IMG/VR virus record: IMGVR_UViG_3300034374_006381
Coordinates: 1-21,437 of that record
Direction: 5' to 3' (one strand)
From: a virus
DNA length: 21,437 nucleotides
The notes under the pieces were generated by a model. The model had not been told where the DNA came from, made no database searches, and saw only the letters and a list, made by a program, of their open reading frames with translations. Position numbers and translations under genes: made by a program. The stretch's first letter is position 1. Every line of letters begins with the position of its first letter. Below, one piece after another: positions 2,234-17,551 of the stretch.

Positions 2234-2254
2234 TAATCGCAAAGGGCGTACTAT
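2226..2254 (+). promoter_or_regulatory. sigma70-like promoter of the HNH gene
   Basis: TTGACT (2226-2231) and TACTAT (2249-2254) are separated by exactly 17 nt. The -35 box covers the last codons and stop of terL. Only 7 nt separate the -10 box from the ATG at 2262, so transcription would start at or next to the A of the start codon. No Shine-Dalgarno sequence precedes that ATG, consistent with a leaderless mRNA. A private promoter is typical of free-standing homing endonuclease genes in phage late regions. Confidence 0.7.
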
Positions 2255-2261
2255 AGTAAAT

Positions 2262-3120: not shown

Positions 3121-3588
3121 ATGCAGATCAAGATCTACGGACAAAAGCGGACGGGCACCAATATGCTCCAGCATTTGCTGAGAGAAGCAGGTCAGACCGT
3201 GATGGTGAACACCGGCGGATGGAAGCACGGCCCACCGCGACTCATCGGAGACCGTCAACTCATCATAGGCAAGCTGGAACGTAACTGGGTAGACAGTATC
3301 GAGCGGTACAACCAACCAGGTGGCGAGGAACGCCACTACGCCGAAGATTGGGAAGCGCGGGAGTTTGCATATTTGGACTTCTGCCGAAAGCACAAGACCG
3401 CAATGTATATCCAATATGAGGGACTGGTCGGATCGCCCGATATGTGGTGGGATCTCATTTGCAAGCACTGCAACATCCGCCACCCCTTTCCCGGCCTGCC
3501 AGCGAACTACATGGGCAGAAGTGGGTTAGAGACCGAATACAAATACCAGCCCGGATTTAAGTTGCCGGGCATCCACAAAGGAGCATGA
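3121..3588 (+). CDS. small sulfotransferase-like P-loop protein
   Basis: This 155-residue protein looks like a compact sulfotransferase, which moves sulfate from PAPS to a sugar or other hydroxyl. The N terminus has a beta strand followed by a 5'-phosphosulfate-binding-type loop, GQKRTGTNMLQHLL (7-20). A second conserved-looking element, LERNWVDSIERY (52-63), resembles the 3'-phosphate binding motif (Arg...Ser in RDPRD...S of the family). It is shorter than most sulfotransferases (about 250-300 residues), so it may be a minimal form. ATG 3121 is chosen over GTG 3118 because GGAGG at 3109-3113 is well spaced from it. It heads a three-gene accessory cassette. The substrate is unknown. A kinase-like P-loop NTPase is the main alternative. 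Confidence 0.7.
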   Translation: MQIKIYGQKRTGTNMLQHLLREAGQTVMVNTGGWKHGPPRLIGDRQLIIGKLERNWVDSIERYNQPGGEERHYAEDWEAREFAYLDFCRKHKTAMYIQYEGLVGSPDMWWDLICKHCNIRHPFPGLPANYMGRSGLETEYKYQPGFKLPGIHKGA

Positions 3589-3589
3589 G

Positions 3590-4255
3590 ATGCACATACC
3601 AGAGAGATACATAGAAACCCACACCGGCGTGTATGAGCAAGACCACACCGGCACCACAGTGTCGCAAGGGTTAAAAGAACACTACGCCGACGGAGCCGAG
3701 CGGATCCTGCAGAACGACCAAAGGCACTACCGCAAACTGTCCGAACTACTTAACAAACGCATCGACGCTGCGGGTATATCTAGAACGTCCTGCGTTGCAA
3801 TCGGAGGCGGACACCCAAAGCTGGAGGTGACTGCAGGCTTTGAGCGTATTGTGGTGCTCGACGCATTGGCAAACGAGTACGGCGACAAACACGATCTATT
3901 CGAAAAGTACTACGGAGCTGCAAACGTTGAGTATATGCAAGCCGTCAGTGACTTTCAGAACATCAAGATCAACGGAACCGTTACACTTGTTCACTTCCTT
4001 GAACACCTGACCGCAGACGCAGGTGCTGAACTGATCGAGCAGGTCGCCACCAACCCGCTCATCATTTACGGGCCAAACATCCAAAGCGCCCGCAATGAGG
4101 ACTGGTTCCATTTCAAGCCAGCGGATCACAACACATTCTGGACAGCCGAAGCGCTGGAGGCACAACTGCGCGACGTAGGATACGACCGCGTCGACGTGAC
4201 GCCCTACAGCGACGACTACCTCATCATTGCAACCCGGGAGCGTAAAGATGTATAA
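3590..4255 (+). CDS. class I SAM-dependent methyltransferase-like protein
   Basis: This 221-residue protein has the layout of a Rossmann-fold methyltransferase. The glycine-rich motif I is CVAIGGGHPKLE (68-79), the acidic end of motif II is VVLDA (88-92), and the motif IV region reads TLVHFLEHL (132-140), followed by a strand with PLIIYGPN. The C-terminal part (NTFWTAEALEAQLRDVGYDRV) matches the loop and last helix region seen in Methyltransf_11/23-type enzymes. AAAGGAG lies at 3577-3583 before ATG 3590. It starts one base after the sulfotransferase stop and overlaps the GT9 gene by 8 nt, so the three are co-translated. The glycine motif begins IGGG rather than the more usual DxGxG. The substrate, perhaps a sugar, is not visible. 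Confidence 0.72.
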   Translation: MHIPERYIETHTGVYEQDHTGTTVSQGLKEHYADGAERILQNDQRHYRKLSELLNKRIDAAGISRTSCVAIGGGHPKLEVTAGFERIVVLDALANEYGDKHDLFEKYYGAANVEYMQAVSDFQNIKINGTVTLVHFLEHLTADAGAELIEQVATNPLIIYGPNIQSARNEDWFHFKPADHNTFWTAEALEAQLRDVGYDRVDVTPYSDDYLIIATRERKDV

Positions 4256-5276
4256 AGCCACACTATCAAAAGACTACATGGGATGCAAGGCGGGCGACAC
4301 CATCCTGCTCGAACGTGCAAACGCCGGCCATGTGCTGGTGATGCAGAAACCACTGGAGTTTGCGGAAGCGGATCCAAGTCAAGCGCACGGAGAGGGCGGT
4401 CACCTAATCGTCCGACCTGGAGGCATTGGCGACCTTGTTCACCTTGGCGCATCCATCCGTGAAGTAGCCAAGAAGTCAGGCCGAAAGGTGGACGTGGCCG
4501 TGGCAGAACGCTACACCTGCGTCGTCAAACACAACCCGAACGTGAGGAAGGTCATCCACTACCCCACGACCGCCGACGTGTTTGACCAGTACGAGGTCAT
4601 CCACTGGCTGGAGGACAGCGTCGAGGAAGAGGTCGAGCTGCACATGGCGGACGCCTTTCTTGAACATTGCGGATTTGATCACACGCAATACGAGCCGACC
4701 GAAAAGTCGCCGGAGTTGTATCTGCCTAAGAGCATCAAGCCAAAGCCGAAGCCAAAGCGTAGGCGTGTAGGGTTTCAACTTAAAGCGTCGGCCAAATGCC
4801 GGACACCAGACCCCGCACTAATGGCTAAGGTCATGGAAATCTACTTTCAAGAAGGCTGGGATGTGTGGATCTTCGGAGCGCCGGGTGAAGTGACCACGGA
4901 CGAGAAGGCGATCACCAACACCACCCAATGGGACAAACCGCCCAGCATCCTCGAAAGCGCGTCGTATATGCAAACGTGCGACCTGTTCATCGCGCCAGAC
5001 AGCGGGCTGCTACACATCGCCGGCGCACTCAAGATCCCGTCGGTCGGATTGTATGGCCCCTTCCCCGCAGACCTGCGTGTGCGGTACAGTCCGTATTGTG
5101 TCGCAGTTGAAGCCAAAGCACCCTGCGCCCCATGCTTCTGGCACGGACGCGGATCCCACTTCCCACCCGGATGCCCAGGTGCCAAGGCCGGCAAGTGCAT
5201 CGTCACCGCAGCGATCCAACCCGAGACCATTGTCCGGGCTGGTGAATTGGCGATGCAAAAGAAGTTTGACAGATAG
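4248..5276 (+). CDS. glycosyltransferase family 9 (heptosyltransferase-like)
   Basis: The 342-residue protein is a GT-B fold glycosyltransferase of the heptosyltransferase (GT9) family, which transfers sugars such as ADP-heptose onto LPS core or other glycans. The N-terminal Rossmann signature RPGGIGDLVHLGASIR lies at 56-71. The C-terminal nucleotide-sugar site reads FIAPDSGLLHIAGALKIPSVGLYGP (about 247-271). A cysteine cluster (C293, C296, C309, C317) followed by IQPETIV is typical of many GT9 proteins. Residues 1-48 form an extra small N-terminal region, and a basic linker with KPKPKPK lies at 164-170. ATG 4248 is preferred over an upstream TTG at 4227 because GGGAG at 4236-4240 precedes it at normal distance. 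It ends the accessory cassette. Its 3' end contains the -35 box of the next promoter. Confidence 0.9.
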   Translation: MYKATLSKDYMGCKAGDTILLERANAGHVLVMQKPLEFAEADPSQAHGEGGHLIVRPGGIGDLVHLGASIREVAKKSGRKVDVAVAERYTCVVKHNPNVRKVIHYPTTADVFDQYEVIHWLEDSVEEEVELHMADAFLEHCGFDHTQYEPTEKSPELYLPKSIKPKPKPKRRRVGFQLKASAKCRTPDPALMAKVMEIYFQEGWDVWIFGAPGEVTTDEKAITNTTQWDKPPSILESASYMQTCDLFIAPDSGLLHIAGALKIPSVGLYGPFPADLRVRYSPYCVAVEAKAPCAPCFWHGRGSHFPPGCPGAKAGKCIVTAAIQPETIVRAGELAMQKKFDR

Positions 5277-5294
5277 CATTGAAATCACTAATAT
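5266..5294 (+). promoter_or_regulatory. strong sigma70-like promoter of the leader RNA and tRNA
   Basis: TTGACA (5266-5271) and TAATAT (5289-5294) are 17 nt apart. The -35 is a perfect consensus, overlapping the last codons of the GT9 gene. Transcription would begin near 5301 and read through the structured leader into tRNA-Asn. Confidence 0.75.
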
Positions 5295-5300
5295 AAAAAG

Positions 5301-5404
5301 AAAGTAGGCGAGTGCATCGCCGAGCGCGTGGTTTTGGGTCTTTCCCCACGCGCTTCCTCCTTTGTCGGGAGCGCCACCCCCCGAAATGCACAGGTGGCCC
5401 TTAT
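5301..5404 (+). ncRNA. structured leader or small RNA with kissing-loop potential
   Basis: This non-coding stretch between a strong promoter and the tRNA can fold into three successive hairpins. Hairpin A pairs 5307-5311 with 5317-5321 (5 bp, loop GTGCA). Hairpin B pairs 5323-5331 with 5346-5354 (9 bp, GC-rich, 14-nt loop). Hairpin C pairs 5373-5378 with 5393-5398 (6 bp). The whole loop of A (5312-5316) is complementary to TGCAC (5387-5391) inside the loop of C, so a kissing interaction is possible. Between B and C lies CCTCCTTT (5356-5363), which resembles the 16S rRNA anti-Shine-Dalgarno tail. No T-run follows, so it is not a normal terminator. I do not recognise a known RNA family. It could be a processed small RNA or only the 5' leader of the tRNA. 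Confidence 0.5.
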
Positions 5405-5479
5405 TGCCAAGTAGCTCAACGGTAGAGCTACGGACTGTTAATCCGTTGGTTGCAGGTTCGAGTCCTGCCTTGGCAGCCA
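5405..5479 (+). tRNA. tRNA-Asn (anticodon GTT)
   Basis: A complete cloverleaf is visible. Acceptor strands TGCCAAG (5405-5411) and CTTGGCA (5469-5475) pair over 7 bp. The D stem is GCTC/GAGC. The anticodon stem ACGGA/TCCGT holds loop CTGTTAA with anticodon GTT at 5437-5439. The T stem GCAGG/CCTGC holds loop TTCGAGT. The discriminator is G (5476) and CCA is encoded (5477-5479). First base T and discriminator G fit bacterial tRNA-Asn. It would read AAC and AAT; AAC is frequent in the capsid and tail genes. It follows the structured leader directly and is probably released by RNase P. Confidence 0.97.
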
Positions 5480-5504
5480 TTCTCACTTTTTAGAAAATTA
5501 AGAC

Positions 5505-5533
5505 TTGCAAATAAGATAAAGATTCGCAATAAT
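5505..5533 (+). promoter_or_regulatory. sigma70-like promoter at the start of the head module
   Basis: TTGCAA (5505-5510) and AATAAT (5528-5533) are 17 nt apart in an AT-rich gap after the tRNA. The -10 box ends 8 nt before the ATG at 5542, and there is no clear Shine-Dalgarno sequence, so the mRNA may be leaderless. TTTAGA (5489-5494) with TAAGAT (5512-5517) is an alternative pair with the same spacing. Confidence 0.55.
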
Positions 5534-5541
5534 AAGAACAG

Positions 5542-5784
5542 ATGGCGGCCCCCACCTACTTAAAACAGCTTGACGAAGCAAAAGAAGCCTTGGCGTTAAT
5601 TGTCAAAGGCCAGCTTGAATCGTCTTCAACTCTGGCCGGTTCGTTCAAGAACTGGACGCCCCAGCAACTGCGCGACCACATCGAGTGGCTGGAAGTCAAA
5701 GCACGACAGGAGTGCATCGAGGCATCGGACAACCGAGCCGGAACAAGATACGTCGCATACGCCGGCGTACGGAGAGCTGACTGA
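5542..5784 (+). CDS. gpW-like head-tail joining protein
   Basis: The 80-residue protein sits directly before the portal gene, where lambda-like phages encode gpW, the small protein that completes the head and forms the surface for tail attachment. The pattern fits the family: an N-terminal helix (LKQLDEAKEALALIVKG), a short beta hairpin region, then a second helix WTPQQLRDHIEWLEVKARQ and a tail ending in a positively charged stretch. Its length is close to the usual 60-80 residues. The stop overlaps the portal start (TGATG at 5782-5786). The start has no Shine-Dalgarno sequence but lies just downstream of a promoter. Confidence 0.78.
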   Translation: MAAPTYLKQLDEAKEALALIVKGQLESSSTLAGSFKNWTPQQLRDHIEWLEVKARQECIEASDNRAGTRYVAYAGVRRAD

Positions 5785-7364
5785 TGAACCCACTGGACAA
5801 GGCCATTGCATACATCTCACCCCGTGCTGGGGCGGAACGCATGAAGAACCGCATGGCCGTCCAAGCATACGCCAGCTACGAGGCAGCCAACCGCAACCCG
5901 CGCGACCGAGATCCACAAGGGCAGTGGCGTGCGCGGTTCGGTCAGGAAAGCGAGTCCAAGGCGTTGCCGATCACCGACCGCGTTACGCTCATCAATGAGA
6001 TCCAAGACCTCCTGCGCAACGACGGCGGACTCATCAGCACCATCCTCACCCGCCTAACAGACCACGTCGTCGGCACCGGGATCCGCCCACAGGCGCGTAC
6101 CGATTCCGAAGAGTGGAACGAGATGGCGGAGTACTACTACGAGAAAGTCTGGTCGGAGATGTTTGACTACGACGGGCGTATGGGGTTCTCGTTCATTGGT
6201 GACGGTCAGAAGTTACTGATCGACGACGCGCATTTCCGAGGTGAATCCTTCCTGCGCCTGATGGCGGACGGTCGAATCCAATGGTTTGAGTCTGAACTCT
6301 GCCGTGACCCGCAGGACAAAAAGACCCGCCTGTTCGAGGACGGGCTACACCTTTCGCCCGCCGGCTGGACATACGGCGCTAATTTCCAATTCAAGCGCAC
6401 CCGTGACCAAGAAACAGTGGACTTGTACGTCCCACGTCGCGACCTAATCCACGCACACAATCCGTTTATGCGTGCGAGGCAACGTCGAGGCATCCCAGTC
6501 TTTGCGTCCGTGGTGCCGCGACTTCAACGCTACCTGTCCACGCTTGAGGCCATGCAACTCAAGGTTGACCTCGAAGCGCAACAGACTCTGGTGTTCTCCG
6601 GCTCTGGCCCAGGCGGTCAGGTTCTCAATGATATGCCGTTTAACGCGCAACAGACCGACAGCGACGGTCGGAAATACAACGAGATCAAGAACTCGAAAGG
6701 CATGATTTACGACCTGCCCGATGGTCGCACGCTCAACAGCGTAGAAACGCGCACACCGTCCGGCGAGCACATGCCCTATATGGAGAGCCACATCCAAGCC
6801 GTAAGCGCTTGTATGGGCATTCCGTACAGCGTGGCGATGATGCTGACCGGCGGATCCTACGCGGCCACCCGCGGGCAGATCCTGGCATTTGAGCATACCG
6901 TCGCCCGGTGGTACAACTATGTGACCAAAGTCAGCCAGCGGACATGGAACTGGTCGATCGCCAAGGCCATCAAAGAAGGCAAACTGCCACCGGCACCGAC
7001 CACCAAAATGCGCGGTCAGATCCGCAGTCAGTGGGACATCGTCGAGTGGACGCAACCCAAACGCCTGACGCTGAACCCGCTTGAGGATCAGAAAGTCAAT
7101 GACGCCAAGTTCGGACGCGGTGACACCACCCTAACCGCCATCCTCAAGCAGGACAACAAAGAGATCAAGGCCGTTTGGGACGAGCGCCAGCGTGAGATCC
7201 AAGACGCCATCCAACGCGCCAAAGAGATCGAAGTGCAGACAGGAGTGGCTGTAGACTGGACTGTTTTCATGTCAACCAATCGCCCAGGAACCGCATCCGC
7301 AGCAGGTAACACACAAAACAAAGCGGAACAAGTCGTAGATCAGGAGTCAGAAGATGCAGGCTAA
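5784..7364 (+). CDS. portal protein, lambda gpB family
   Basis: The 526-residue protein forms the dodecameric ring at one vertex of the prohead, through which DNA enters and leaves. It matches the lambda-type portal family in length and sequence pattern: an early helical segment (VTLINEIQDLLRNDGGLISTILTRL) with HVVGTGIRPQAR; RGIPVFASVVPRLQRYLSTLEAMQLKVDLEAQ in the middle (long conserved family helix); and MGIPYSVAMMLTGGSYAATRGQILAFEH towards the C terminus. The last part is Gln/Glu-rich. It is translationally coupled to gpW upstream and overlaps the protease gene by 11 nt. Confidence 0.95.
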   Translation: MNPLDKAIAYISPRAGAERMKNRMAVQAYASYEAANRNPRDRDPQGQWRARFGQESESKALPITDRVTLINEIQDLLRNDGGLISTILTRLTDHVVGTGIRPQARTDSEEWNEMAEYYYEKVWSEMFDYDGRMGFSFIGDGQKLLIDDAHFRGESFLRLMADGRIQWFESELCRDPQDKKTRLFEDGLHLSPAGWTYGANFQFKRTRDQETVDLYVPRRDLIHAHNPFMRARQRRGIPVFASVVPRLQRYLSTLEAMQLKVDLEAQQTLVFSGSGPGGQVLNDMPFNAQQTDSDGRKYNEIKNSKGMIYDLPDGRTLNSVETRTPSGEHMPYMESHIQAVSACMGIPYSVAMMLTGGSYAATRGQILAFEHTVARWYNYVTKVSQRTWNWSIAKAIKEGKLPPAPTTKMRGQIRSQWDIVEWTQPKRLTLNPLEDQKVNDAKFGRGDTTLTAILKQDNKEIKAVWDERQREIQDAIQRAKEIEVQTGVAVDWTVFMSTNRPGTASAAGNTQNKAEQVVDQESEDAG

Positions 7365-8160
7365 ATTCATCAGACACCTATACGGCGCACCTTGGGCCAT
7401 CGTGCCCGATAAGCACCGCGAACTCTGCGCGGATGTCAAGGCAATGGACTTGACCATCGAAATGCCGGAAGAGTCCGAGACCGGGCTTTTGGTCATGGAC
7501 GGAATCGCGCACGTCTACATCTACGGCGTCATGGTTCCATCGGCAACGGCGACGGAGGAGGAGTTTTTCGGACTTGCCAGCACATCCAAAGCCATTGAGC
7601 AAATCAAGGAAGCGGACTACCGCTCCGACGTCGATGGCATTATGGTCATCTGGGACACACCCGGAGGCTACACGCAAGGCGTGCCAGAGTTGGGCGTGAC
7701 CATTGCAAACGTCAAGAAGCCACTGGTCAGCTATGTGGAGGGAGGCATGAACTCCGCCGGCTATTGGGCGGGATGCAGTCAGACCGTATATGCAGACGAG
7801 TTTGCATCCATCGGCTCCATCGGCTGCTACATGGCGGTGTACGACCAGTCTAAGATGTTCGAGATGGCGGGGCTTAAAACCATTTTAATCACCACAGGCA
7901 AACATAAAGGAGCCGGAACACCCGGCACCGAGATGAGCGAGGAGCAGATCCAACACTACGCGGACGAAGTGGTCGGCGTGGTGGGTCAACGCTTTTTCGA
8001 CCATGTCACCGAGTACCGCCGGATTTCGGAGGAACTGATGGACGGACGCAGCTGGCTCGGTGCCAGTGCCTTGGAACTGAATCTGATCGACGCGGTCGGG
8101 TCACGAGATGACGCGATGCGCGAACTTGTAAACATGATAACCGAAAAGGAGCTAATATGA
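7354..8160 (+). CDS. prohead protease, S49 (gpC/SppA) family
   Basis: This 268-residue serine protease probably trims head proteins and scaffold during prohead maturation. It has the ClpP/crotonase-like fold pattern: DGIMVIWDTPGGYTQGV (94-110), then the nucleophile region MNSAGYWAG with Ser134, then ASIGSIGCYMAVYD (151-164). The general base lysine is in GKHKGAGTPG, probably K185 by analogy with SppA. AGGAG at 7342-7346 supports ATG 7354. It overlaps the portal by 11 nt and the scaffold gene by 4 nt (ATGA). In lambda the protease and scaffold genes are nested; here the scaffold is a separate coupled gene. Confidence 0.93.
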   Translation: MQAKFIRHLYGAPWAIVPDKHRELCADVKAMDLTIEMPEESETGLLVMDGIAHVYIYGVMVPSATATEEEFFGLASTSKAIEQIKEADYRSDVDGIMVIWDTPGGYTQGVPELGVTIANVKKPLVSYVEGGMNSAGYWAGCSQTVYADEFASIGSIGCYMAVYDQSKMFEMAGLKTILITTGKHKGAGTPGTEMSEEQIQHYADEVVGVVGQRFFDHVTEYRRISEELMDGRSWLGASALELNLIDAVGSRDDAMRELVNMITEKELI

Positions 8161-8606
8161 GCGCACTTTCGATCCAGGTCAAAGACCTGAAACAAGAGCT
8201 TGCCGTTGCCCACGAGGCACACGTCGAGCAGGTGTCTGCGTTTGAGTCGCAGATTGCCGAACTGGCAGAAGCTAAAGAAGGCTTCGAGGCCAAAGTTGCC
8301 GAACTCGACAAAGCACTGGTAGAAGCCAATGAATCCGCAGAAGCCATCAAAGCCGAAGCCGAAGAGCTGAAAGCTGGACTCATGGCCAAAGAGGAAGAAC
8401 TGGCGGTCGCCAAGTCTGAAATCGAACAGGCCAAAGCCGCACTCGCGGATCCGTCTCTGGCGCCCGTCGCCGAAGCTGGAGCCGAGGACGACGGACAGTC
8501 GCCGCTGGCCGAAGAGCCTGCATCCCTTGAAAAACTCCGCTCTCTGGAAGGATCCGAACGCGCTGCGTATTGGGCCGAACACAAGAGCGAACTGTTGAAA
8601 CTGTAA
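8157..8606 (+). CDS. scaffolding protein (coiled coil)
   Basis: The 149-residue acidic protein is almost entirely helical and coiled-coil up to about residue 95, rich in Ala, Glu and Lys, followed by an Ala/Glu/Pro linker and a short charged C-terminal region (SLEKLRSLEGSERAAYWAEHK). Its place between protease and major capsid genes indicates the internal scaffold that guides capsid assembly and is then removed by the S49 protease. The conserved-looking C-terminal helix probably contacts the capsid protein. AAGGAG at 8146-8151 precedes its ATG. Sequence similarity alone would not identify it; the call is from composition and order. Confidence 0.85.
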   Translation: MSALSIQVKDLKQELAVAHEAHVEQVSAFESQIAELAEAKEGFEAKVAELDKALVEANESAEAIKAEAEELKAGLMAKEEELAVAKSEIEQAKAALADPSLAPVAEAGAEDDGQSPLAEEPASLEKLRSLEGSERAAYWAEHKSELLKL

Positions 8607-8633
8607 GCCATTAACCCATAGGAGAAATTTACC

Positions 8634-9533
8634 ATGGCTATTAACTCTGCATTAGTTGGAGAGATTGTCTCTCAGAACGCTTTCTTTGCGTTCCGTGACG
8701 CGCTGACCCCCGTGGCTGGCGCATTTGCTACCGACTTCGGTGGCGAAGTTGCTAACAACCGCCAAGTGGTCGACGTGCCCGTGTTCAACGGTTACTCTGC
8801 CGGAACCTACGCCGGCGACTACACGACCAACGCATCCAACAACGTTGGCGCTGTGACCGTGACCGTTAACAAACACCAGTACAAGACGATCAGCCTGACC
8901 GACTTGGAAGTGTCGAACAACGGCGCATCCGCCACCAACCTGGAGTCGTTCGGACGCAAGCTGGGTGACGCCCTGTCGCTGGCTGTATATCAGGACGTTC
9001 TGTCTCTGGTGACCGCTGCCAACTTCGGCACCGCCACCGGGTTCACCGGCACATCCACCGGCTTTGATTCCGATGACGTCATCGACATCAAGACCGTCTG
9101 TGATGCCGCTGACATGCCCCGCAGTGGCCGTAACATCATTCTGGCCGACGCGTACTACAACGCCCTGTTGAAAGATACGAGCGTCAAGAACGCCCAGAAC
9201 TACGGCACCACCGAAGGCATCCAGGCCGGAACCATTCCGAACCTCGCCGGCTTCCGCGTGTGGCAGTCCAACGCAGTGCCCGCCAACGCCGAGAACCTCG
9301 TAGGCTTCGCCTGTGTGGATTCCGCCATTGCGGTTGCTATGCGTTACCTGCGCCCGCAGGAAGGCAACAAGTACAGCATGGCTGCACCGTTGACCGACGC
9401 CGAAACCGGGATCACCCTCGGAATGCGCGAATGGTACGACGAAGCCAAAGGTACCAAGTACCTGACGCTTGAGTGTAACTACGGTTACAGTGTTGCACAG
9501 GCCGCCGGTCTGAAACGCATCACCTCTGCGTAA
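8634..9533 (+). CDS. major capsid protein
   Basis: The 299-residue protein is the main head shell protein, predicted to have the HK97 fold. Position (after scaffold, before connectors), length, a strong AGGAG at 8620-8624 and a terminator directly after it all support high expression. Visible segments include an N-terminal helix, VVDVPVFNGYSAGTYAGDYT and VNKHQYKTISLTDLEVSNN (extended loop and spine regions), ADMPRSGRNIILADAYYNALLKD, and a C-terminal TLECNYGYSVAQAAGLKRI. It resembles the P22-gp5-like or related branch rather than lambda gpE in pattern, but I cannot be certain of the subfamily. Codons are markedly GC-ending, as expected for a highly expressed gene in this genome. Confidence 0.92.
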   Translation: MAINSALVGEIVSQNAFFAFRDALTPVAGAFATDFGGEVANNRQVVDVPVFNGYSAGTYAGDYTTNASNNVGAVTVTVNKHQYKTISLTDLEVSNNGASATNLESFGRKLGDALSLAVYQDVLSLVTAANFGTATGFTGTSTGFDSDDVIDIKTVCDAADMPRSGRNIILADAYYNALLKDTSVKNAQNYGTTEGIQAGTIPNLAGFRVWQSNAVPANAENLVGFACVDSAIAVAMRYLRPQEGNKYSMAAPLTDAETGITLGMREWYDEAKGTKYLTLECNYGYSVAQAAGLKRITSA

Positions 9534-9545
9534 GTAAAACCTAAT

Positions 9546-9585
9546 GCCCCTCCCTCCGCCAGTCACGCGCTGGGGGAGGGGCTTT
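9546..9585 (+). terminator. rho-independent terminator after the capsid gene
   Basis: A 9-bp perfect GC stem pairs 9546-9554 with 974-type partner 9574-9582 (GCCCCTCCC with GGGAGGGGC). It is continued by a 4-bp inner stem (9559-9562 with 9570-9573) and closed by a 7-nt loop. TTT follows at 9583-9585, then AAAT, so the T-run is short. It lies 12 nt after the capsid stop and probably lowers expression of the downstream connector genes relative to capsid. Confidence 0.82.
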
Positions 9586-9604
9586 AAATCTTGGAGAATG
9601 TGAC

Positions 9605-9844
9605 ATGAAAATTAAACCAGCAGTTATTGTAACAGTCACCGACGGCATTCCAAATTGCTACGCCTGCGGAGACTTTGCACAGATTCACGAAGAGTTCCGA
9701 GCCATCAAGAAGGCAGGATGGCAGGGATTCGAAGAAGCGTATGAGATCAATGCAAGAGGCATTGACGGACGCGCCAAATTTAAGAAACCAGAACAACCGA
9801 CCGCACCCGCCAAGACAACGCGGAAAAAGAAAACGGACGCATAA
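9605..9844 (+). CDS. small protein of unknown function, gpFI position
   Basis: This 79-residue protein follows the capsid terminator and precedes the connector gene, the place of lambda FI or of decoration/assembly proteins. I do not recognise it by sequence. The first 55 residues include VIVTVTDGIPNCYACGDF with a CxxC pair and a helical part (HEEFRAIKKAGWQGFEEAYEI). The tail is Ala/Pro-rich and ends in a lysine cluster (TTRKKKTDA), probably disordered. GGAG at 9593-9596 supports ATG 9605. The stop is immediately followed by the next ATG. It may assist DNA packaging or head completion, but this is inferred only from position. Confidence 0.75.
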   Translation: MKIKPAVIVTVTDGIPNCYACGDFAQIHEEFRAIKKAGWQGFEEAYEINARGIDGRAKFKKPEQPTAPAKTTRKKKTDA

Positions 9845-10156
9845 ATGGGACGCTATGATACACGGATACAGCAGTTGATTGCGCTGGTGACCAGTGACGC
9901 TGAGACGTCTATCACCATCGCGGGCACTGCGGTGCCGTGCATCATCTCCGACCAGGCGTACACCGAGACAGGAGAGAATGCGGGAAGCCGGGTGGTTCGC
10001 TCAATCGAGACGGACATCCTGCTTTCTGACCTTTCCGGGATTGATGTTTCTGTGGGCAAGACGGCGGTGTACGAAGGCGTAACGTACAAGATCACCGAAC
10101 CGAAAACCACGCACAGCAACGGAAATGTCATCCGTATTCAGTGGGGGGCAGAGTAA
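9845..10156 (+). CDS. head-tail connector, gpFII-like
   Basis: The 103-residue protein has a short N-terminal helix (YDTRIQQLIALV) and then mostly beta strands (SITIAGTAVPCIISDQ, VRSIETDILLSDLSGI, KTAVYEGVTYKITEPKT, GNVIRIQW). This matches the small beta-barrel head-tail attachment proteins of the lambda gpFII / Gifsy-2-like type, which close the connector and contact the tail. Position between capsid and tail-completion genes agrees. The stop overlaps the next start (TAATG at 10154-10158). Confidence 0.75.
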   Translation: MGRYDTRIQQLIALVTSDAETSITIAGTAVPCIISDQAYTETGENAGSRVVRSIETDILLSDLSGIDVSVGKTAVYEGVTYKITEPKTTHSNGNVIRIQWGAE

Positions 10157-10881
10157 TGGCTGGCGCGATTGTGGTTGACCGTCGCACGTTCAATCGTGGC
10201 ATTGACGCCATGATGAAAGAGTACGGCACGTCTGCAGCGGGCGTCATGCGTCGGCAAATGTCGATCCTGTCCGGGCAGTTGGCCAAGCGTTACCCACCAA
10301 ACAAGAAAAGCGTGGGTAAGCAAGCCATCGAAAACGACATGAAGCGCATCATGATCCCGATGCCACAGGAGCATGAGGACACGCTGACCCGTTGGCAGGA
10401 CAGCATGGAGTCCACGTTTGACGTATTCGACGATACGGGCACGCGGATCCAGCAGTGGCATCGAGATCACATTGACCCACGCAAAAACCGAGTGACCAAA
10501 AGCATCCGCGGGACGCGATTTATCAACGGTCGCAAGTTCTCCATGAAGTTGCACGTCAAGGAAAGCGACCTTAAGAAGTACGTCAACCGATTGGCGGGCA
10601 AAGTCGGAACCCTCAAAAGCGGATGGGTGCCCGGGGTTACCCGGTGGAAGGGTGGCAAAAAGCCACCGAGCTGGGTGACAAAGCATAGCGGGAACGGATA
10701 CGCAGTTGATCGTATGCGCAACGACGGCTCCGGCTATTTGGAAATAGGCAACAGAATCCAAGGCGCAGCGCGATGGAAGCGGATTGACTCTTTCGTCGTC
10801 AAGTCCCGCGAGAGCGGGTTCCAGAAAGAACTTAAAGCCGCAGTACGCAAAGCCGACAAGGCAGGGAACCGAATCCGATGA
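10156..10881 (+). CDS. tail completion / minor tail protein, gpZ-like
   Basis: The 241-residue basic protein occupies the place of lambda gpZ, needed to finish the tail so that it can join the head. It begins with IVVDRRTFNRGIDAMMKEYG and has a long Lys/Arg-rich sequence with mixed helix and strand, typical of gpZ or HK97-gp10-like proteins. ATG 10156 overlaps the upstream stop and is preferred over the in-frame GTG at 10141, which would overlap the preceding gene by 16 nt. It overlaps the next gene by 4 nt. The assignment is mainly by order and general pattern. Confidence 0.68.
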   Translation: MAGAIVVDRRTFNRGIDAMMKEYGTSAAGVMRRQMSILSGQLAKRYPPNKKSVGKQAIENDMKRIMIPMPQEHEDTLTRWQDSMESTFDVFDDTGTRIQQWHRDHIDPRKNRVTKSIRGTRFINGRKFSMKLHVKESDLKKYVNRLAGKVGTLKSGWVPGVTRWKGGKKPPSWVTKHSGNGYAVDRMRNDGSGYLEIGNRIQGAARWKRIDSFVVKSRESGFQKELKAAVRKADKAGNRIR

Positions 10882-11333
10882 GCCTGTACAAATCACGCAA
10901 ACGCAATCTCGAGGAGGCGGTGCAGGAGACGCTGGAGACGTATGCAGGCACTGCCATTGACGGCGTCCAGATCCTTCTCGGGCGCGACATCACCGTGCAG
11001 GAGCCGACCCACATCCGCATCCATGCAGGCAGTCAAGAGCCTATGTCGGGCGAAGAGGATTTACTGCTTAACTTCCGGGTCACCTGCACCATCACCGTCC
11101 AGCAGTCAATGGATCGCACCCGCGACCAGGTCGACACCTTGGACGGGATCGTCGAAGGATACGTTGAGCAGGACAGCGACACGATCGTTGCGGCGCTTAA
11201 CACCTGCTCGGTTCCTAACTTCGGCGTCTGGGAGTTTCAACCCGAATCATGCGAGGATGACATCGACGAGGAGAACCGCAGATACCTTTCCGCTTACACT
11301 TTTTCGGCCATCGTTGGCCACGCAACCTACTAA
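10878..11333 (+). CDS. tail terminator protein, gpU-like
   Basis: The 151-residue protein lies between the gpZ-like gene and the tail tube candidate, where lambda gpU (the ring that ends tail polymerisation) is encoded. It shows an alternating helix and strand layout with strands LLLNFRVTCTITVQQ and NRRYLSAYTFSAIVGHATY and a helix TRDQVDTLDGIVEGYVEQ. This fits the gpU fold in length (about 130-150) and outline. It is an acidic protein and is translationally coupled (ATGA) to the gene upstream. The call is from position and secondary-structure pattern; sequence identity to gpU is not obvious. Confidence 0.65.
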   Translation: MSLYKSRKRNLEEAVQETLETYAGTAIDGVQILLGRDITVQEPTHIRIHAGSQEPMSGEEDLLLNFRVTCTITVQQSMDRTRDQVDTLDGIVEGYVEQDSDTIVAALNTCSVPNFGVWEFQPESCEDDIDEENRRYLSAYTFSAIVGHATY

Positions 11334-11352
11334 TCCAAAATAGGAGAAAATT

Positions 11353-11703
11353 ATGGCAACAACTGTAATTGGTACAGACCTGAATAAAGGTGCCGGCACA
11401 CTGTCCGGGTATTACATCCAATCGGCAACGGTTGGCGGCGCAGACATTGATATGGAGGACTTCGAGGACGGTGCTGATGGCAGCCGGATCTCTCGGTTCG
11501 TCTACAAGGTCGATGACAAAGTCAGTCTGGAACTGCTCGCAGCGGGCACCATGGCCGAGGGCGACATCACCACCGACTTTCCGGAAGGTGCTATGGCCAC
11601 CGCTACAGGCTACACCGCATTCTTTGTTGATTCCTGCCAGATCAACAAGTCACGCGGAGCCTGGCGCGTCAATGTCAGCATGACCAACATCGGCATCACC
11701 TGA
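11353..11703 (+). CDS. probable tail tube protein (short)
   Basis: The 116-residue protein is preceded by a good AGGAG (11342-11346) and an untranslated gap, which suggests high expression as expected for a tube subunit made in many copies. It appears all-beta: TLSGYYIQSATVGGADIDMEDFED, RFVYKVDDKVSLELLAAG, and GAWRVNVSMTNIGI at the end. The motif of a residue pair before a final strand is common in tube-fold proteins. It is shorter than most siphovirus tube proteins (about 150-250), so a related tail or baseplate component is the alternative. The next gene starts 4 nt after its stop. Confidence 0.55.
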   Translation: MATTVIGTDLNKGAGTLSGYYIQSATVGGADIDMEDFEDGADGSRISRFVYKVDDKVSLELLAAGTMAEGDITTDFPEGAMATATGYTAFFVDSCQINKSRGAWRVNVSMTNIGIT

Positions 11704-11707
11704 TCCG

Positions 11708-12292
11708 ATGGTTGACGAGGTTTTTAGTTCAACGGATATATCCCACACCTGCCCACAATCTGTGGCGCAGGTGCTGGGCGTTGGACTGATGCCCGTCAGC
11801 ATTTGGCACGTCTGGCTTTTGAAATCATACGAGAGCCCATTCGCAGTTGGAGGTCAGCCACAGGTAAACGATCTCGCGCTGGCGGTGCTGATCTGCTCGA
11901 TGAACCGAAAGGACATGGGTGCGGTTTTGTCAGATGACAAAAAGATGGCAGAAGCGGTCGCATCTATAGCAGAAAACTGGTTTACAATACCGAGCGCAGA
12001 GCTTGAGATCCACGTCCTGTCGTTTAACCAATACCTGACCGAAGGGCTTGACGGGCCACAGTTTTGGGAGGATCCAGAACACAACCCAGTTAAAGACAGG
12101 AGCCGGTGCCCAATGGAGTGGCACCTTGTCAAGATGCTACTAAACGAGCGCATCTGCCAGACCGAGGAAGAGGCGTGGAACTACTCTTTCACCCGCGCCT
12201 TGTGCTGGTCTGCGGTGGTAGGTGAAACGAACGGAAGCAGAAACTACATTGACCCGGTCGACCGGGCAGACATTGAAAAGGTAAACGTCTAA
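11708..12292 (+). CDS. probable tail assembly chaperone
   Basis: The 194-residue protein is largely helical and sits between the tube candidate and the tape measure gene, the invariant place of the tail assembly chaperone that coats the tape measure during tail assembly. It is acidic overall and has a helical core (PQVNDLALAVLICSMNRKDMG, MAEAVASIAENWF). Many phages produce a longer form by a -1 frameshift; no convincing slippery heptamer is present (only a run of five A at about 11938-11943). It may therefore act as a single form. The stop overlaps the tape measure start as TAATG. Confidence 0.6.
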   Translation: MVDEVFSSTDISHTCPQSVAQVLGVGLMPVSIWHVWLLKSYESPFAVGGQPQVNDLALAVLICSMNRKDMGAVLSDDKKMAEAVASIAENWFTIPSAELEIHVLSFNQYLTEGLDGPQFWEDPEHNPVKDRSRCPMEWHLVKMLLNERICQTEEEAWNYSFTRALCWSAVVGETNGSRNYIDPVDRADIEKVNV

Positions 12293-13419
12293 TGGCAACG
12301 ATACGCAACAAGGCAACGCTTGACAGCAAACCGTTCTCCTCTGGCGTTGACCAGATGAAGGCAAAGGTTGGCGGGTTCAGCAAATCGCTGGGATCGATGA
12401 AGCGTGCGATGGCTGGCGCATTTGCAACAGGAGCGGTTGCTAATATGGCAAGGCGTGCGCTTGAAGCTGCCGACAACGTTGACAACCTTTCGAAGCAATT
12501 AGGACTCGGCAGAGAAACCACGCAGTCGCTGCAAGTTGCGTTTCAAGAGGCCGGACTTGAACTTACAAGTCTAAACACCACGATGGCAACCTTGCAACAG
12601 AAACAAGCGGAAGCTATAAGTGGAAATAAAAAGGCGACCGAATCCTTTGCTGCGTTTGGATTGTCGATTGCAGATCTGCAAAAAATGTCGCCCGAACAAC
12701 TTCTTGAGGCAATATCAAAAAGACTTGGAGATACCGAGACGGATGCGTCTGCGGCTGCCGCTATGTTCCAACTGATGGGGTCAAGGTCGGCAAGGCTTAA
12801 AAACGTCCTGCAAGAAACCGCAAGAGATGGCTTCGGCCAATTAAACTCCGAAATGATCAAGGCCGGGCGGATTATGGAGGACGAGGTTATTTCAAGGCTG
12901 GACAGAATGGAGGAGAAATTTGCAAGGCAGAAACAACGTATGGGGGCAGGTGCTGCGACGTTGCTGTCTGGGATCATAGGAGGGGTAGAAGAGTTTGCCG
13001 GCGGTATTGGCGCAATGACCGCTGGCGGAACATTCCAGCAGGGTCAGCAAATCATACGCGCTCAAGATCAGGTGAGCCAGTCCGTTTCTGAAATTCCGAA
13101 GATAATGGCAGCGCCGGCAGAATCCATGGAAGAATCAGCCGAAACTATCAAGGAAGTGGTCGAGGCATTGCCAAAAGAGATTGCAAAAAAGGAAGCGGAT
13201 CGAGCATTCGGAAATTTACGAGCAATCGGCGCCAACCTAATCACGCCAGAATCCCTTGGCAAGTTTGGCGAACTTGACCCACGCGCAAACCTTTCTAAAG
13301 ACCGGGTGGCTCGGATATATGAGATCTACGGCAAGTTGCAGACAGAACAAGGCAAAAAAATGATGCGGTATATGCAGGACATCGCAGACAACACATCCAA
13401 CAACCAGGCGGTGCTATAA
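12292..13419 (+). CDS. tape measure protein (short)
   Basis: The 375-residue protein sets tail length and is delivered during infection. It has the usual features: N-terminal helical region with KPFSSGVDQMKAKVGGFSKSLGSMKRAM, the family-like segment LEAADNVDNLSKQLGLGRETTQSLQVAFQEAGLE (57-90), a hydrophobic Gly-rich stretch at about 218-246 (AATLLSGIIGG, GGIGAMTAGG) that could span a membrane, and long helical ends. It is very short for a tape measure; at the usual about 0.15 nm per residue it predicts a tail of roughly 55 nm. Near the end, a run of seven A (13354-13360) is followed by an open -1 frame that runs into the next gene. It overlaps both neighbours by one base (TAATG). Confidence 0.85.
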   Translation: MATIRNKATLDSKPFSSGVDQMKAKVGGFSKSLGSMKRAMAGAFATGAVANMARRALEAADNVDNLSKQLGLGRETTQSLQVAFQEAGLELTSLNTTMATLQQKQAEAISGNKKATESFAAFGLSIADLQKMSPEQLLEAISKRLGDTETDASAAAAMFQLMGSRSARLKNVLQETARDGFGQLNSEMIKAGRIMEDEVISRLDRMEEKFARQKQRMGAGAATLLSGIIGGVEEFAGGIGAMTAGGTFQQGQQIIRAQDQVSQSVSEIPKIMAAPAESMEESAETIKEVVEALPKEIAKKEADRAFGNLRAIGANLITPESLGKFGELDPRANLSKDRVARIYEIYGKLQTEQGKKMMRYMQDIADNTSNNQAVL

Positions 13420-14018
13420 TGACAGAGATCGGCAGTTTAGCAGGTGGCACACGGCAAGAAGAGCGCCGCACATACCAAACTAAAGACCGGAAAACGGTCG
13501 AGTATGTTCTGGCATCTTCCGACGAGGCCACGTTTCTCGGTTCCTACAGCATCGGGACAAGTTTAAGCGATGGGCTTTACCTTGAGTCGATTGACCTGCG
13601 GAATTTCAAAGGCGTCACCCGCGCGACGTTGACGTATGTGACCGAGGAGGAGCTTGTCAATCTGCGCTATGGCGGAACGGGCACAAGCAAGGCCAGTGAT
13701 TCAAACGGCGTAGAGTTGCCTATTGAACTCAACCCAAACTGGTCGCTGTCGTGGGAATCGACCAAACCCGGCGTGACAAGCTTCATCGCACCACAGCCGA
13801 CATACACTTACACGCAGATCGTAAACAGTTTCACTTTTTCAGAATCAAATATTGTTGAAAACGTCGGGACTATTGACTCGCCTACAGGCATGACAAGTCC
13901 GTCTGCCAACAAATGGCTCAAGACAAGTAAAACAGTCACACCGCAAGGTGGCAAGTACCAGATCACAGAGACGTGGCAATATAACGCAAGCGGATGGGAC
14001 ACTGACATCTACAGCTAA
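13419..14018 (+). CDS. tail protein of unknown type (distal tail candidate)
   Basis: The 199-residue protein directly follows the tape measure, where distal tail or minor tail proteins are encoded. It is rich in beta strands and Thr/Ser (LGSYSIGTSLSDGLYLESIDLRNFKGVTRATLTYVT; KYQITETWQYNASGWD at the end). I do not recognise a family. The polar, strand-rich sequence and location are compatible with a tail-tip or baseplate hub component. The start codon overlaps the preceding stop, so translation is coupled. No catalytic motif or signal peptide is seen. Confidence 0.65.
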   Translation: MTEIGSLAGGTRQEERRTYQTKDRKTVEYVLASSDEATFLGSYSIGTSLSDGLYLESIDLRNFKGVTRATLTYVTEEELVNLRYGGTGTSKASDSNGVELPIELNPNWSLSWESTKPGVTSFIAPQPTYTYTQIVNSFTFSESNIVENVGTIDSPTGMTSPSANKWLKTSKTVTPQGGKYQITETWQYNASGWDTDIYS

Positions 14019-14020
14019 TC

Positions 14021-14608
14021 ATGAGCGGAGCATCTAATCCACCACCAGCACCACAAGAGGGTCGGCTTGTTGTAAGCTACCTTAAGACGCTTGTGCAATG
14101 GATCAAGCGCAACCGTATTCTGCCCGGGAAAGGCGTCAGGCTTTCCCAAACCAGCAACGGAATCACGCTGTCCGTCTCTGGTTTTGGTGACAGTGGCCCG
14201 CACCCGTGGCAGGTTAGCACCACGGGCACCGGCACGATCACACTCTATCCGGGAAACATTAACAGCATCATCCCGACCAATATGTTCAGCGAGTTGAGTT
14301 ATGCCGGCACAGGGCTGGAGTTTGTGGTGTTGGACACAGCTGTCAGCGGAAACGCGCCAAACACCTGCACGATCTCTGTCGAAGTCACAGAACCGGATCC
14401 GAATGCAAACGTCGAGCAAGCCACAGGAACCGCGTTTGCGGACGTGCTGGCGTTGATCAATGACGGGACGGTGTACCAGATCCGCAGGAACAACCTGGTC
14501 GCGGAGAGCAGGAAAGAGTTCAGCACGCCTGTGGTGTCTCCATCTCCTGGCGAGTACAATCTGATCGACTATTACAGATGGGTGGTAACAGAAACGCCGG
14601 ACGGGTAA
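14021..14608 (+). CDS. minor structural protein, tail tip (unknown family)
   Basis: The 195-residue protein begins with a Pro-rich tail (SNPPPAPQEG), then a basic helix (LVVSYLKTLVQWIKRNRIL) and a glycine-centred segment PGKGVRLSQTSNGITLSVSG that I associate with small tail proteins of uncharacterised phages. The rest is strand-rich (GTGTITLYPGNINSI, LEFVVLDTAVSG). It lies in the tail-tip block between the gene after the tape measure and the Thr/Ser-rich protein, with only one or two bases between genes. Function is unknown; a linker or adaptor for the fibre is a reasonable guess only. Confidence 0.6.
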   Translation: MSGASNPPPAPQEGRLVVSYLKTLVQWIKRNRILPGKGVRLSQTSNGITLSVSGFGDSGPHPWQVSTTGTGTITLYPGNINSIIPTNMFSELSYAGTGLEFVVLDTAVSGNAPNTCTISVEVTEPDPNANVEQATGTAFADVLALINDGTVYQIRRNNLVAESRKEFSTPVVSPSPGEYNLIDYYRWVVTETPDG

Positions 14609-14609
14609 C

Positions 14610-16535
14610 ATGATCACGGCAGCGATCACCACCGACGTGCGGACAAACTCCGGGTCAACGACGTACAACACCACGTTTATCGATACCAATTTCGGAGTAA
14701 CGACGACATCGAACAGGTCAGACTATGCCGACCCCGCGCAAACGTATGGCGAGACAACCGCGTCCGCTGTTGACGGAGGGACGAAAACAGAATCCAACCA
14801 AGACAGTTACTCGGCAAACAGATCGTACACTACAAGCAGCGGGCAGAGCTTTTCGGGGTTCGGGCCTAAAACCGGCACCACCGCGTCCACATATGAAACA
14901 GTGGCAGGAACAACCCGCACGGTTGAACAGGGCGGAGATCCCGGCAGCGTTTGGTCGTATACAAAGGAGCTGTACACCACCACGGCTACATTTGAGTTTA
15001 CGCACCACAACACGGTCACCACGACCGCAACGTCAGAGGTCAGCAAGTCAGGCACATCCTCATATGTAGAGTCTAAATCGACGTGGCCAAGTGCGATCTC
15101 TTCCACCTATCAGCGGACGGTGACAGAAACGACCGCCAACGTACTGACCACGCAGACCTCGTCGTTTATCGGTGTGTCAGCATTGACAAACACCGACACA
15201 AACCTGACCACAACCGAGGCCACGTTTGCGGACTTCTTCCTGCCGTTGTACGTCGTGACCACATCTGCCACACCGGCAGAGGCTGGGCTTTTCACGTCCA
15301 CCAGCGTGACCACGAACTCGTTTGTCACAAGGCTGAACTCCTTCACAATATCCAGTACCGCCGGCTATACGTTCAACACGGACGGCACATACACATACCT
15401 GCGGTTTGAGTCACGCACCACGACGTCCACGTTCCTGCCCGGTTTAGGGACAAGGACGGGATACGGTGACGCGATGACGTCAAGCGCAAGCATTAATGTA
15501 TCAGGTGGCAACAACTGGGTCACAAAGACCAGACAACTCTACTCGGACGGATTGCCGTACACCGTGACCACCGAGTACAATATCGGCACAAGCGTCAGCA
15601 CCTACGCCGCGTTGACGTCGTACAGCCTGGTGACCGAGACGTCATCGCTTGGTGAGTTTGTGTTTAACTTCAGCACCTACACCGACACCGCTTCGACATC
15701 ATTCAAAGTCACAGACCGCACCACCTCGACCGAGTACATCTTTGACCAGAGTTATGTGGTGGAAGTGTCACAGGCCAGCACAGTGACCTTCTCGACCACT
15801 AAAGACTACGCTCTTGGAGCAGATGGTACATGGACAAGTCACGTCGAATATGCGCTGCAAAGACTTGCCAATAGCATCACCGAGGCGGACGCCAGATTCA
15901 TATCCAAGTACAGCGACGACGCAATTTACTTTTTCAACGGCAACACCGGCATGGGGATCAGCGGGTTCCCGTCTGCATTCACTGGCGCATTTACTGCCGG
16001 CCCGACCTACTACGCCACCGCATCCAGCAACGTGCTGGCGCTCAAGTCGTTCTGGACTGCCACCAAGTCCGCCTTTGCGTTTACCGACTACGAGACCACA
16101 TCCTACACCATCCGCATCGAGATGCCCGGAAACACCAACGCGTCGGGCACATATCAGACCACCAGCACGTCACTCAGCGGAACCGACACGGTTACAGAGA
16201 CGGGAAGCACATCCTCCACCTTCAACATCGGGATCCAGACCGCAACGACAAACGAACCGTACAATGTTGGCGAGCTTTCTAACATGACGAAGGGGCAGGT
16301 TCTCTACGGATCCAGTGCGACTTTTAGCTTTACCGGGCCAATGCAGGCGACTATTATGGGCACAAGTACAGACGAGCTGACTATCACAGACTCGACCTAC
16401 ACCATAGCACCGGGAAACATTGTGAGACTAAAAGACCGATACATTTACACCAACGCCACGACCATTCTAAACGACCAGGGGTATGTGACCGAAGCATCCA
16501 CAAACCTTGGCACAGGATCGGGGCTGTTCTTATGA
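14610..16535 (+). CDS. large Thr/Ser-rich tail protein (fibre or tail-tip candidate)
   Basis: The 641-residue protein is extremely rich in Thr and Ser: I count 24 Thr and 14 Ser in the first 100 residues, and the richness continues through the length. Segments such as TTTATFEFTHHNTVTTTATSEVSKSG and Tyr-Thr alternation suggest many beta strands of an extended, trimeric or repetitive fibre. Cys is absent or nearly so and there is no signal peptide. No enzyme motif is seen. Gene order puts it at the tail tip. Its last 4 nt overlap the start of a glycosyltransferase gene, which makes it a possible O-glycosylated virion protein. I do not recognise a family; the composition could in part reflect the genome's AC-rich codons (ACC, ACA). 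Confidence 0.7.
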   Translation: MITAAITTDVRTNSGSTTYNTTFIDTNFGVTTTSNRSDYADPAQTYGETTASAVDGGTKTESNQDSYSANRSYTTSSGQSFSGFGPKTGTTASTYETVAGTTRTVEQGGDPGSVWSYTKELYTTTATFEFTHHNTVTTTATSEVSKSGTSSYVESKSTWPSAISSTYQRTVTETTANVLTTQTSSFIGVSALTNTDTNLTTTEATFADFFLPLYVVTTSATPAEAGLFTSTSVTTNSFVTRLNSFTISSTAGYTFNTDGTYTYLRFESRTTTSTFLPGLGTRTGYGDAMTSSASINVSGGNNWVTKTRQLYSDGLPYTVTTEYNIGTSVSTYAALTSYSLVTETSSLGEFVFNFSTYTDTASTSFKVTDRTTSTEYIFDQSYVVEVSQASTVTFSTTKDYALGADGTWTSHVEYALQRLANSITEADARFISKYSDDAIYFFNGNTGMGISGFPSAFTGAFTAGPTYYATASSNVLALKSFWTATKSAFAFTDYETTSYTIRIEMPGNTNASGTYQTTSTSLSGTDTVTETGSTSSTFNIGIQTATTNEPYNVGELSNMTKGQVLYGSSATFSFTGPMQATIMGTSTDELTITDSTYTIAPGNIVRLKDRYIYTNATTILNDQGYVTEASTNLGTGSGLFL

Positions 16536-17551
16536 AGATCGGGGTCACCATAGCCGGGACGCACAGCTACCAGTACGCGCTGGCGGATTGCGTCAAGCGG
16601 GTAAAGAAAGCCATTTACCATGCCCAGACCCGCCGCCCAGAGATTGAGGCGGTGTTTATCCTGTCCACCGATGCAGAGGGGGTTGACTACGCAAGGCAGG
16701 TCTGCCCGGAGGCGAATGTGGAAGTCACCCACATGGAAGAGGGTGGCGTCCGCTATAAAGACCAAGCGCAACTGTTGATTGCAGACCTGCAGCAACGCGG
16801 ATTTGACCGAGCCGTAGCCGAGGACGTAGACCTGTGCTGGACGGTAGAGTCGGACGTCTTGGTGCCATACAACGCGCTTTCGTGTATGCTCGATATGCTA
16901 CAGTTCGACGATGGATACTACGACGTGGCGTTTGTTACTTATCCGTCGCAGTCGGGTAGCGCATTCTTGGGCGGGCATGGATCCCCCAGCAATCCAATCT
17001 CCGAGGACTTTCTGGTCGAGGAGCGGGACGTGCCGGAGGAGTTGCTTGATAAGTATAACAAAGCAAAGGAGCAGGTCGAGAAGCCAGACGCGGAGGAGGA
17101 CGCCAAGAAGGCATGGGCGGACGTGAACGAGGAGGTCAAGAAATGCCCGCCACGGGATAACGTGTTCGGATTAAACGCCAAGAAATGGCGTCGGCGGGGA
17201 TGGTTTGACAATGCGTTCCCAGGCATCGGGCGGGGTGCAGTTCTGGAAACCGACTGGACGGGACTGGGTTGCAATCTGTTAACCCGCAAGGCGTTGGCTT
17301 TAGCAAGCTTTGACGGGTACGAGGGCAAGGGCACGCAAGACCTTTTTCTGAACTGGCGCAGATGGAAAGCCAATGACCTGCGGATGTGCGTTATTTCCCA
17401 TTGTGTTTGCGAACACGTCATCACTAAAGAGGACGGCACCCGCTGGGTCGCATTGGCACACCATGAACCACAAGGCGAGTGTAAAGGCCACCTACGGATC
17501 CAGCTTGTTCCTTACAAGCCGGAGACTTTTAAGATTGAAAACAACCCTTGA
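16532..17551 (+). CDS. GT-A-type glycosyltransferase-like protein
   Basis: The 339-residue protein resembles GT-A fold glycosyltransferases. It starts with a Rossmann-like strand (MKIGVTIAGT), has VFILSTDAEGVDYARQ, and a DxD-type metal-binding region DLCWTVESDVLVPYNAL where E106-S107-D108 takes the DxD place. A later part, AVLETDWTGLGCNLLTRKALALASFDGYEGKGTQDLFLNWRRW (236-278), resembles the acceptor and catalytic region of GT2-like enzymes (G..T.D). Residues about 165-205 form a Glu/Lys-rich insert, and the C terminus has HHEPQGECKGH. It is translationally coupled (ATGA) to the Thr/Ser-rich protein gene. Donor and acceptor are unknown; a virion O-glycosyltransferase is the favoured reading. 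Its 3' end holds the next promoter. Confidence 0.72.
   Translation: MKIGVTIAGTHSYQYALADCVKRVKKAIYHAQTRRPEIEAVFILSTDAEGVDYARQVCPEANVEVTHMEEGGVRYKDQAQLLIADLQQRGFDRAVAEDVDLCWTVESDVLVPYNALSCMLDMLQFDDGYYDVAFVTYPSQSGSAFLGGHGSPSNPISEDFLVEERDVPEELLDKYNKAKEQVEKPDAEEDAKKAWADVNEEVKKCPPRDNVFGLNAKKWRRRGWFDNAFPGIGRGAVLETDWTGLGCNLLTRKALALASFDGYEGKGTQDLFLNWRRWKANDLRMCVISHCVCEHVITKEDGTRWVALAHHEPQGECKGHLRIQLVPYKPETFKIENNP

Follow-up and report, generated by a model that had tools for sequence, protein, structure and literature searches.

A tail gene cassette of uncultivated phages that pairs a GT-A fold enzyme with a variable Thr/Ser-rich protein, its likely glycan acceptor

To our knowledge, glycosylation of phage virions is known from few cases, which concern mainly capsids. 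Glycans have been reported on the major capsid proteins of the mycobacteriophages Che8 and Rita (PMC11256854), and Corndog carries an O-methyltransferase gene and three glycosyltransferase-type genes between portal and protease, which have been proposed to modify the capsid (PMC4351075). Another point of comparison is provided by the autotransporter heptosyltransferases TibC and AAH, each of them a dedicated enzyme that heavily glycosylates Ser residues of a repetitive adhesin at the cell surface (PMC4358343). The locus described here resembles the mycobacteriophage cases in that phage-encoded glycosyltransferases lie within or near the virion genes, and it resembles TibC acting on TibA in combining a dedicated enzyme with a surface-protein partner, a similarity in principle. 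It is nevertheless distinct from both: TibC and AAH have a GT-B fold resembling WaaC, whereas the partner enzyme here is a GT-A; this GT-A has a Thr/Ser-rich tail protein as its partner, whereas in the mycobacteriophages the capsid is modified; and its family, queried with three different members, found no match among 50,697 phage records. What sets the locus apart from these systems is both the enzyme family and its association with a variable tail protein.

The window, by which we mean the whole IMG/VR record of 21,437 bp, is a linear fragment whose late genes all run in one direction (Table 1). Its tape measure protein is so small that a short tail is to be expected. The first-pass annotation had gathered the stretch 3121-17551 into a single dispersed glycan-modification set; the conserved unit comprises only 14021-17551. 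We consider this unit to be a tail cassette in which the GT-A enzyme likely glycosylates the neighbouring Thr/Ser-rich tail protein. The best reading of its composition is a mobile connector, a variable Thr/Ser-rich tail protein and a dedicated glycosyltransferase, accompanied by optional decorating genes. Over its full length the 641-residue protein contains 22.2% Thr and 12.9% Ser; the count of 38 such residues among its first 100, given earlier, is exact (24 T, 14 S), and the 4-nt overlap of its reading frame with that of the GT-A enzyme was confirmed. Part of the fibre-like protein encoded after the cassette is common to two related contigs (G001 and G002), and its residues 172-364 are 73% identical to G002.

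Table 1. Features of the window, with positions counted from its first nucleotide
Feature	Coordinates	Strand	Remarks
terL	488-2233		phrog_15
HNH endonuclease gene	2226-3086		directly 3' of terL; PF14279 E=4.9e-10
Sulfotransferase-like protein, 156 aa	3118-3588	+	PF13469 E=6.9e-5, below cut-off
Probable class I methyltransferase, 221 aa	3590-4255	+	weak PF13489 and MftM matches
GT9 glycosyltransferase, 349 aa	4227-5276	+	PF01075 E=5.6e-14
tRNA-Asn (GTT)	5405-5479		between GT9 gene and head genes
Portal	5784-7364		phrog_21
Protease	7354-8160
Major head protein	8634-9533
Tape measure, 375 aa	12292-13419
Connector-like tail gene, 195 aa	14021-14608	+	first of conserved cassette
Thr/Ser-rich tail protein, 641 aa	14610-16535	+	candidate glycan acceptor; 35% Thr+Ser
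GT-A fold glycosyltransferase, 339 aa	16532-17551	+	new family; predicted structure, conserved active-site positions
Fibre-like protein, 665 aa	17570-19567	+	after cassette

Neither Pfam nor PHROGs nor NCBIfam contains a profile that matches the 339-residue enzyme, and sequence searches of the PDB with the protein or its profiles returned nothing usable. Its AF2 model, built from 38 family sequences, reached a pLDDT of 93.6 and a pTM of 0.90 (with three sequences the pLDDT was just 46.9). Comparison by Foldseek and VIA-align places this model in the GT-A fold, with many GT-A structures matched at Z 15-19, so that the initial GT-A call withstood the fold search. The best match is COLGALT1 residues 52-331 (Z 19.2 over 239 residues at 3.5 Å), followed by Mnn9 (Z 17.5) and LH3 (Z 17.4) and then by WrtF, R699, RmlT and GalNAc-T2; many of the viral models that were also matched are annotated as glycosyltransferases. 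The GT-A fold is shared with COLGALT1, which modifies proteins, with LH3 and with R699 of mimivirus, which is viral; unlike these three, to which it is 11-12% identical, the enzyme has a single GT-A domain and no collagen-like acceptor, and the part of R699 that is matched (253-455) lies away from the metal-binding and catalytic residues described for that protein (PMC11838735). Judged by its predicted structure, the product of 16532-17551 is a GT-A fold enzyme, a fold that does not in itself tell the acceptor.

The active-site features of GT-A enzymes, namely the DxD and xED motifs and the C-His (PMC7185993), served as reference for the conserved residues. D47, (E/D)106-x-D108, (Q/E)269-D270 and H295 are kept in 38/38 family sequences, across which G244 and G246 are likewise invariant; the kept positions were assigned to the three motifs by sequence order and structure elements. 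This conservation supports a metal-using and probably inverting enzyme, in which the metal would be held by E106-x-D108 together with H295, and D270 would act as the catalytic base.

The family search started with two relatives and a third that was found via the preceding gene, which yielded a four-row profile. With this profile at least 148 viral contig stretches were found to contain a family member, 80 of which were kept for comparison. A scan of bacterial genome contigs that preceded the profile had found no member; the profile itself located members in the assemblies of Kiritimatiellaeota bacterium B1221 (L089), a Chthoniobacter flavus MAG and a Burkholderiales MAG. Screening 388 genomes from the phylum of the Chthoniobacter MAG returned only the two members already found, and just two carriers among so many genomes offer a hint at hosts rather than a host assignment. 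The family is missing from profile libraries yet widespread in uncultivated viruses.

The pairing was examined in 86 loci, including the window, with reading frames called by a simple rule; a gene next to that of the enzyme counted as Thr/Ser-rich if its product had 300 aa or more and a Thr+Ser content of 17% or higher. Such a gene adjoins the GT-A gene in 83/86 loci, which bears out the co-occurrence across genomes that had been put forward as a check. In two of the three exceptions (L045 and L049) the locus is truncated by a contig end, and the third (L075) lies on a contig that starts 140 bp before the enzyme; for L089 a serine-repeat gene 3' of GT-A was counted, and the preceding 661-aa gene (31% Thr+Ser) qualifies too. 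Where the upstream neighbour lies on the same strand and has at least 400 aa (74 loci), it contains at least 20% Thr+Ser in 71, with a median of 28.4%; the median for the other large genes of the compared loci (n=236) is 13.1%. The most Thr/Ser-rich gene adjoins GT-A in 72 of the 78 testable loci (19.5 expected), a count that depends on the simple calling of reading frames and is drawn from loci related to each other. With a single locus per enzyme cluster, the same holds for 34 of 38 at 80% identity (10.9 expected) and for 13 of 15 at 60% identity (4.2 expected).

A member of the connector family is present in 78/86 loci and adjoins the Thr/Ser-rich gene in 77. Most loci show connector, Thr/Ser-rich gene and GT-A in one order; in 8 testable loci, however, the enzyme gene is inverted and converges on the Thr/Ser-rich gene from the other strand. 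These convergent loci form three lineages, the representatives of which share only 33-41% of residues in their enzymes. Between loci whose enzymes are 90-95% identical, the paired Thr/Ser-rich proteins have diverged to background, with a median identity of 22% (composition correction off), and 11/59 pairs show no hit at all, while the preceding connector keeps 45% identity. L044 and L050, for instance, encode enzymes that are 98.5% identical beside unrelated Thr/Ser-rich partners. The window enzyme is 73% identical to that of G001 and 82% to that of G002, despite the fact that tblastn (E<=1e-3) with the window terL, portal and head genes found no match in either. Shared gene order alone is therefore insufficient to explain the adjacency, given the convergent orientation and the divergence of the candidate acceptor. 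A scan for the connector motif agrees with the pairing: for the next gene the medians are 30% Thr+Ser and 626 aa where GT-A is present (24 loci), and 20% and 321 aa where it is absent (8 loci; Mann-Whitney P=1.9e-5), a contrast that we take as supporting evidence only, since one of the 8 (L124) is carried by a contig that does have a GT-A gene (L058), which weakens it, and several of the rest belong to one clade.

Other proteins of repetitive composition lie near the cassette in some loci. Serine/threonine-repeat proteins are encoded at 11083-12471 of L089 and at 4909-5841 and 5847-6632 of L042; with 41-55% Thr+Ser, their composition is like that of serine-rich repeat adhesins. In G001 (L004 1-270 and the end of L005) the fibre-like gene 3' of GT-A ends in a BspA-like repeat that also links the two ends of the contig, which overlap by 56 bp. 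Directly 3' of GT-A, a second gene family occurs in L024 (11042-12031), L036 (11043-12017) and L038 (11092-12084); it has no convincing Pfam match and is possibly another transferase.

Genes related to sugar metabolism accompany the enzyme in various forms. Sugar-nucleotide enzyme genes directly adjoin GT-A in 14 loci: an epimerase/dehydratase gene in L010, L011 and L034 (PF16363 E=9.1e-41 in L010), an RmlD-like gene in L032, and a cupin sugar-isomerase-like gene upstream in six convergent loci and downstream in four others. Two further cupin sugar-isomerase-like genes lie about 0.66 kb away. A sulfotransferase gene is found 407 bp after GT-A in L026 and L027, with PF13469 over the cut-off in L026, and in G001 it follows GT-A by two genes (E=1.6e-16). 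Some 20 contigs carry a GT2-type gene among the head genes, about 8 kb from GT-A; in L061 this GT2-type gene has a methyltransferase domain fused to it. Of 50 relatives, 14 have GT2, 2 have PF13469 and 0 have GT9, which indicates that the core is the gene pair and that the decorating genes vary. The same GT9 and PF13469 counts led us to reject a conserved pathway of four enzymes. The earlier proposal of self-glycosylation thus stands in part: the pairing of GT-A with the Thr/Ser-rich gene holds across the loci, and the fixed set that would extend, sulfate and methylate the glycan does not.

We propose that the GT-A enzyme would move a sugar from a nucleotide-sugar donor to hydroxyl groups on Thr and Ser of the adjacent tail protein. 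The transfer would take place inside the infected cell, ahead of assembly, and would give O-linked glycans that may serve shielding or host binding. The enzyme would read the Thr/Ser-rich character of its partner and not an exact sequence, which would leave the surface protein free to diversify or to be swapped with the enzyme unchanged. Some phages supplement this core with enzymes of sugar-nucleotide metabolism, additional glycosyltransferases, methyltransferases or a sulfotransferase.

The enzyme might instead act on another virion protein, such as the major head protein, the connector or the downstream fibre, with the Thr/Ser-rich gene as a mere neighbour in the cassette. Capsid glycosylation in mycobacteriophages offers a precedent (PMC11256854), and a uniform order of the three genes in most loci would fit as well; we nevertheless consider this unlikely, because what persists in the neighbour is its Thr/Ser richness, against changes in its sequence, in gene order and in the remainder of the phage. 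The host surface is a second conceivable target: the enzymes would alter LPS or capsule against superinfection or re-adsorption, and the Thr/Ser-rich protein would be only a receptor-binding protein, which its hypervariability does recall. Seroconverting phages alter host surface glycans, and GT9 enzymes are typically LPS heptosyltransferases. However, the flippase GtrA, the usual companion of the glycosyltransferase in seroconverting phages, was found neither in the window nor in any of the 50 relatives (PF04138, 0/50), the window enzymes show no hydrophobic stretch of membrane length, and a host target does not explain why the partner should always be Thr/Ser-rich even as its sequence changes; this alternative, also raised in the first-pass annotation, therefore appears improbable. 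Passive adjacency, in which the cassette moves as a block and no reaction takes place, would account for the one gene order of most loci by shared descent or cassette exchange and for the Thr/Ser richness by the Thr-rich composition that is also common in beta-structured phage fibres, but fixed active-site positions, adjacency that persists in convergent orientation in three lineages and sugar-nucleotide genes beside GT-A in several forms make it very improbable.

Glycosylation of the neighbouring tail protein remains our preferred reading for the cassette, and the enzyme genes near terL call for a separate one. Their positions between terL and the head genes were confirmed, and all three share a separate site with the HNH endonuclease gene and the tRNA. 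Around the HNH gene the G+C content is reduced (44% in 2001-3000), and this gene may represent a homing element next to the decorating ones. Among the original enzyme calls, GT9 is upheld by 52.5 bits to PF01075 against a cut-off of 22, and the protein matches the heptosyltransferase II structure 1psw (E=2.6e-4). The sulfotransferase-like protein falls below the PF13469 cut-off (23.6 against 27 bits, with a match limited to residues 74-121), its N-terminal GQKRTGTN being read by eye as a candidate 5'-phosphosulfate-binding loop; the methyltransferase-like protein has weak hits (PF13489 E=0.064, MftM E=0.0045), and its class I motifs were likewise read by eye. Scans of viral contigs and phage records with each of the three proteins found no close relatives, PDB sequence searches with the sulfotransferase-like and methyltransferase-like proteins gave nothing usable, and BLASTP of the former against its counterpart in G001 produced no real alignment. 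The GT9 protein is nearer to TibC and AAH in fold, but it is unlinked to the tail gene and absent from the 50 relatives. The target of these enzymes could be the head, the tail or the host, and they are best read as one variable set of optional additions, for which a role on the tail protein would be conjecture.

It is conceivable, though rather doubtful, that one GT-A decorates an ever-changing tail protein by its composition and that sulfation or methylation of the glycan follows in some phages, resulting in a sulfated tail glycan. Among the papers listed by full-text searches, none was recognisable from its title as a description of sulfated phage virions, so that sulfation of a virion glycan is a speculative extension; nor was any recognisable as a description of phage-encoded glycosylation of tail fibres.

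Altogether, the gene pair turns up in phages whose head genes are otherwise unrelated and presents one enzyme with one candidate acceptor, so that tail glycosylation becomes testable with two genes in a laboratory host. It also points to a likely function for an enzyme family that the profile libraries lack. If true, our reading would hint at a way for a protein on the receptor side to vary freely under a sugar coat that persists. The recurrence of the pair suggests that many uncultivated phages glycosylate their own tails.
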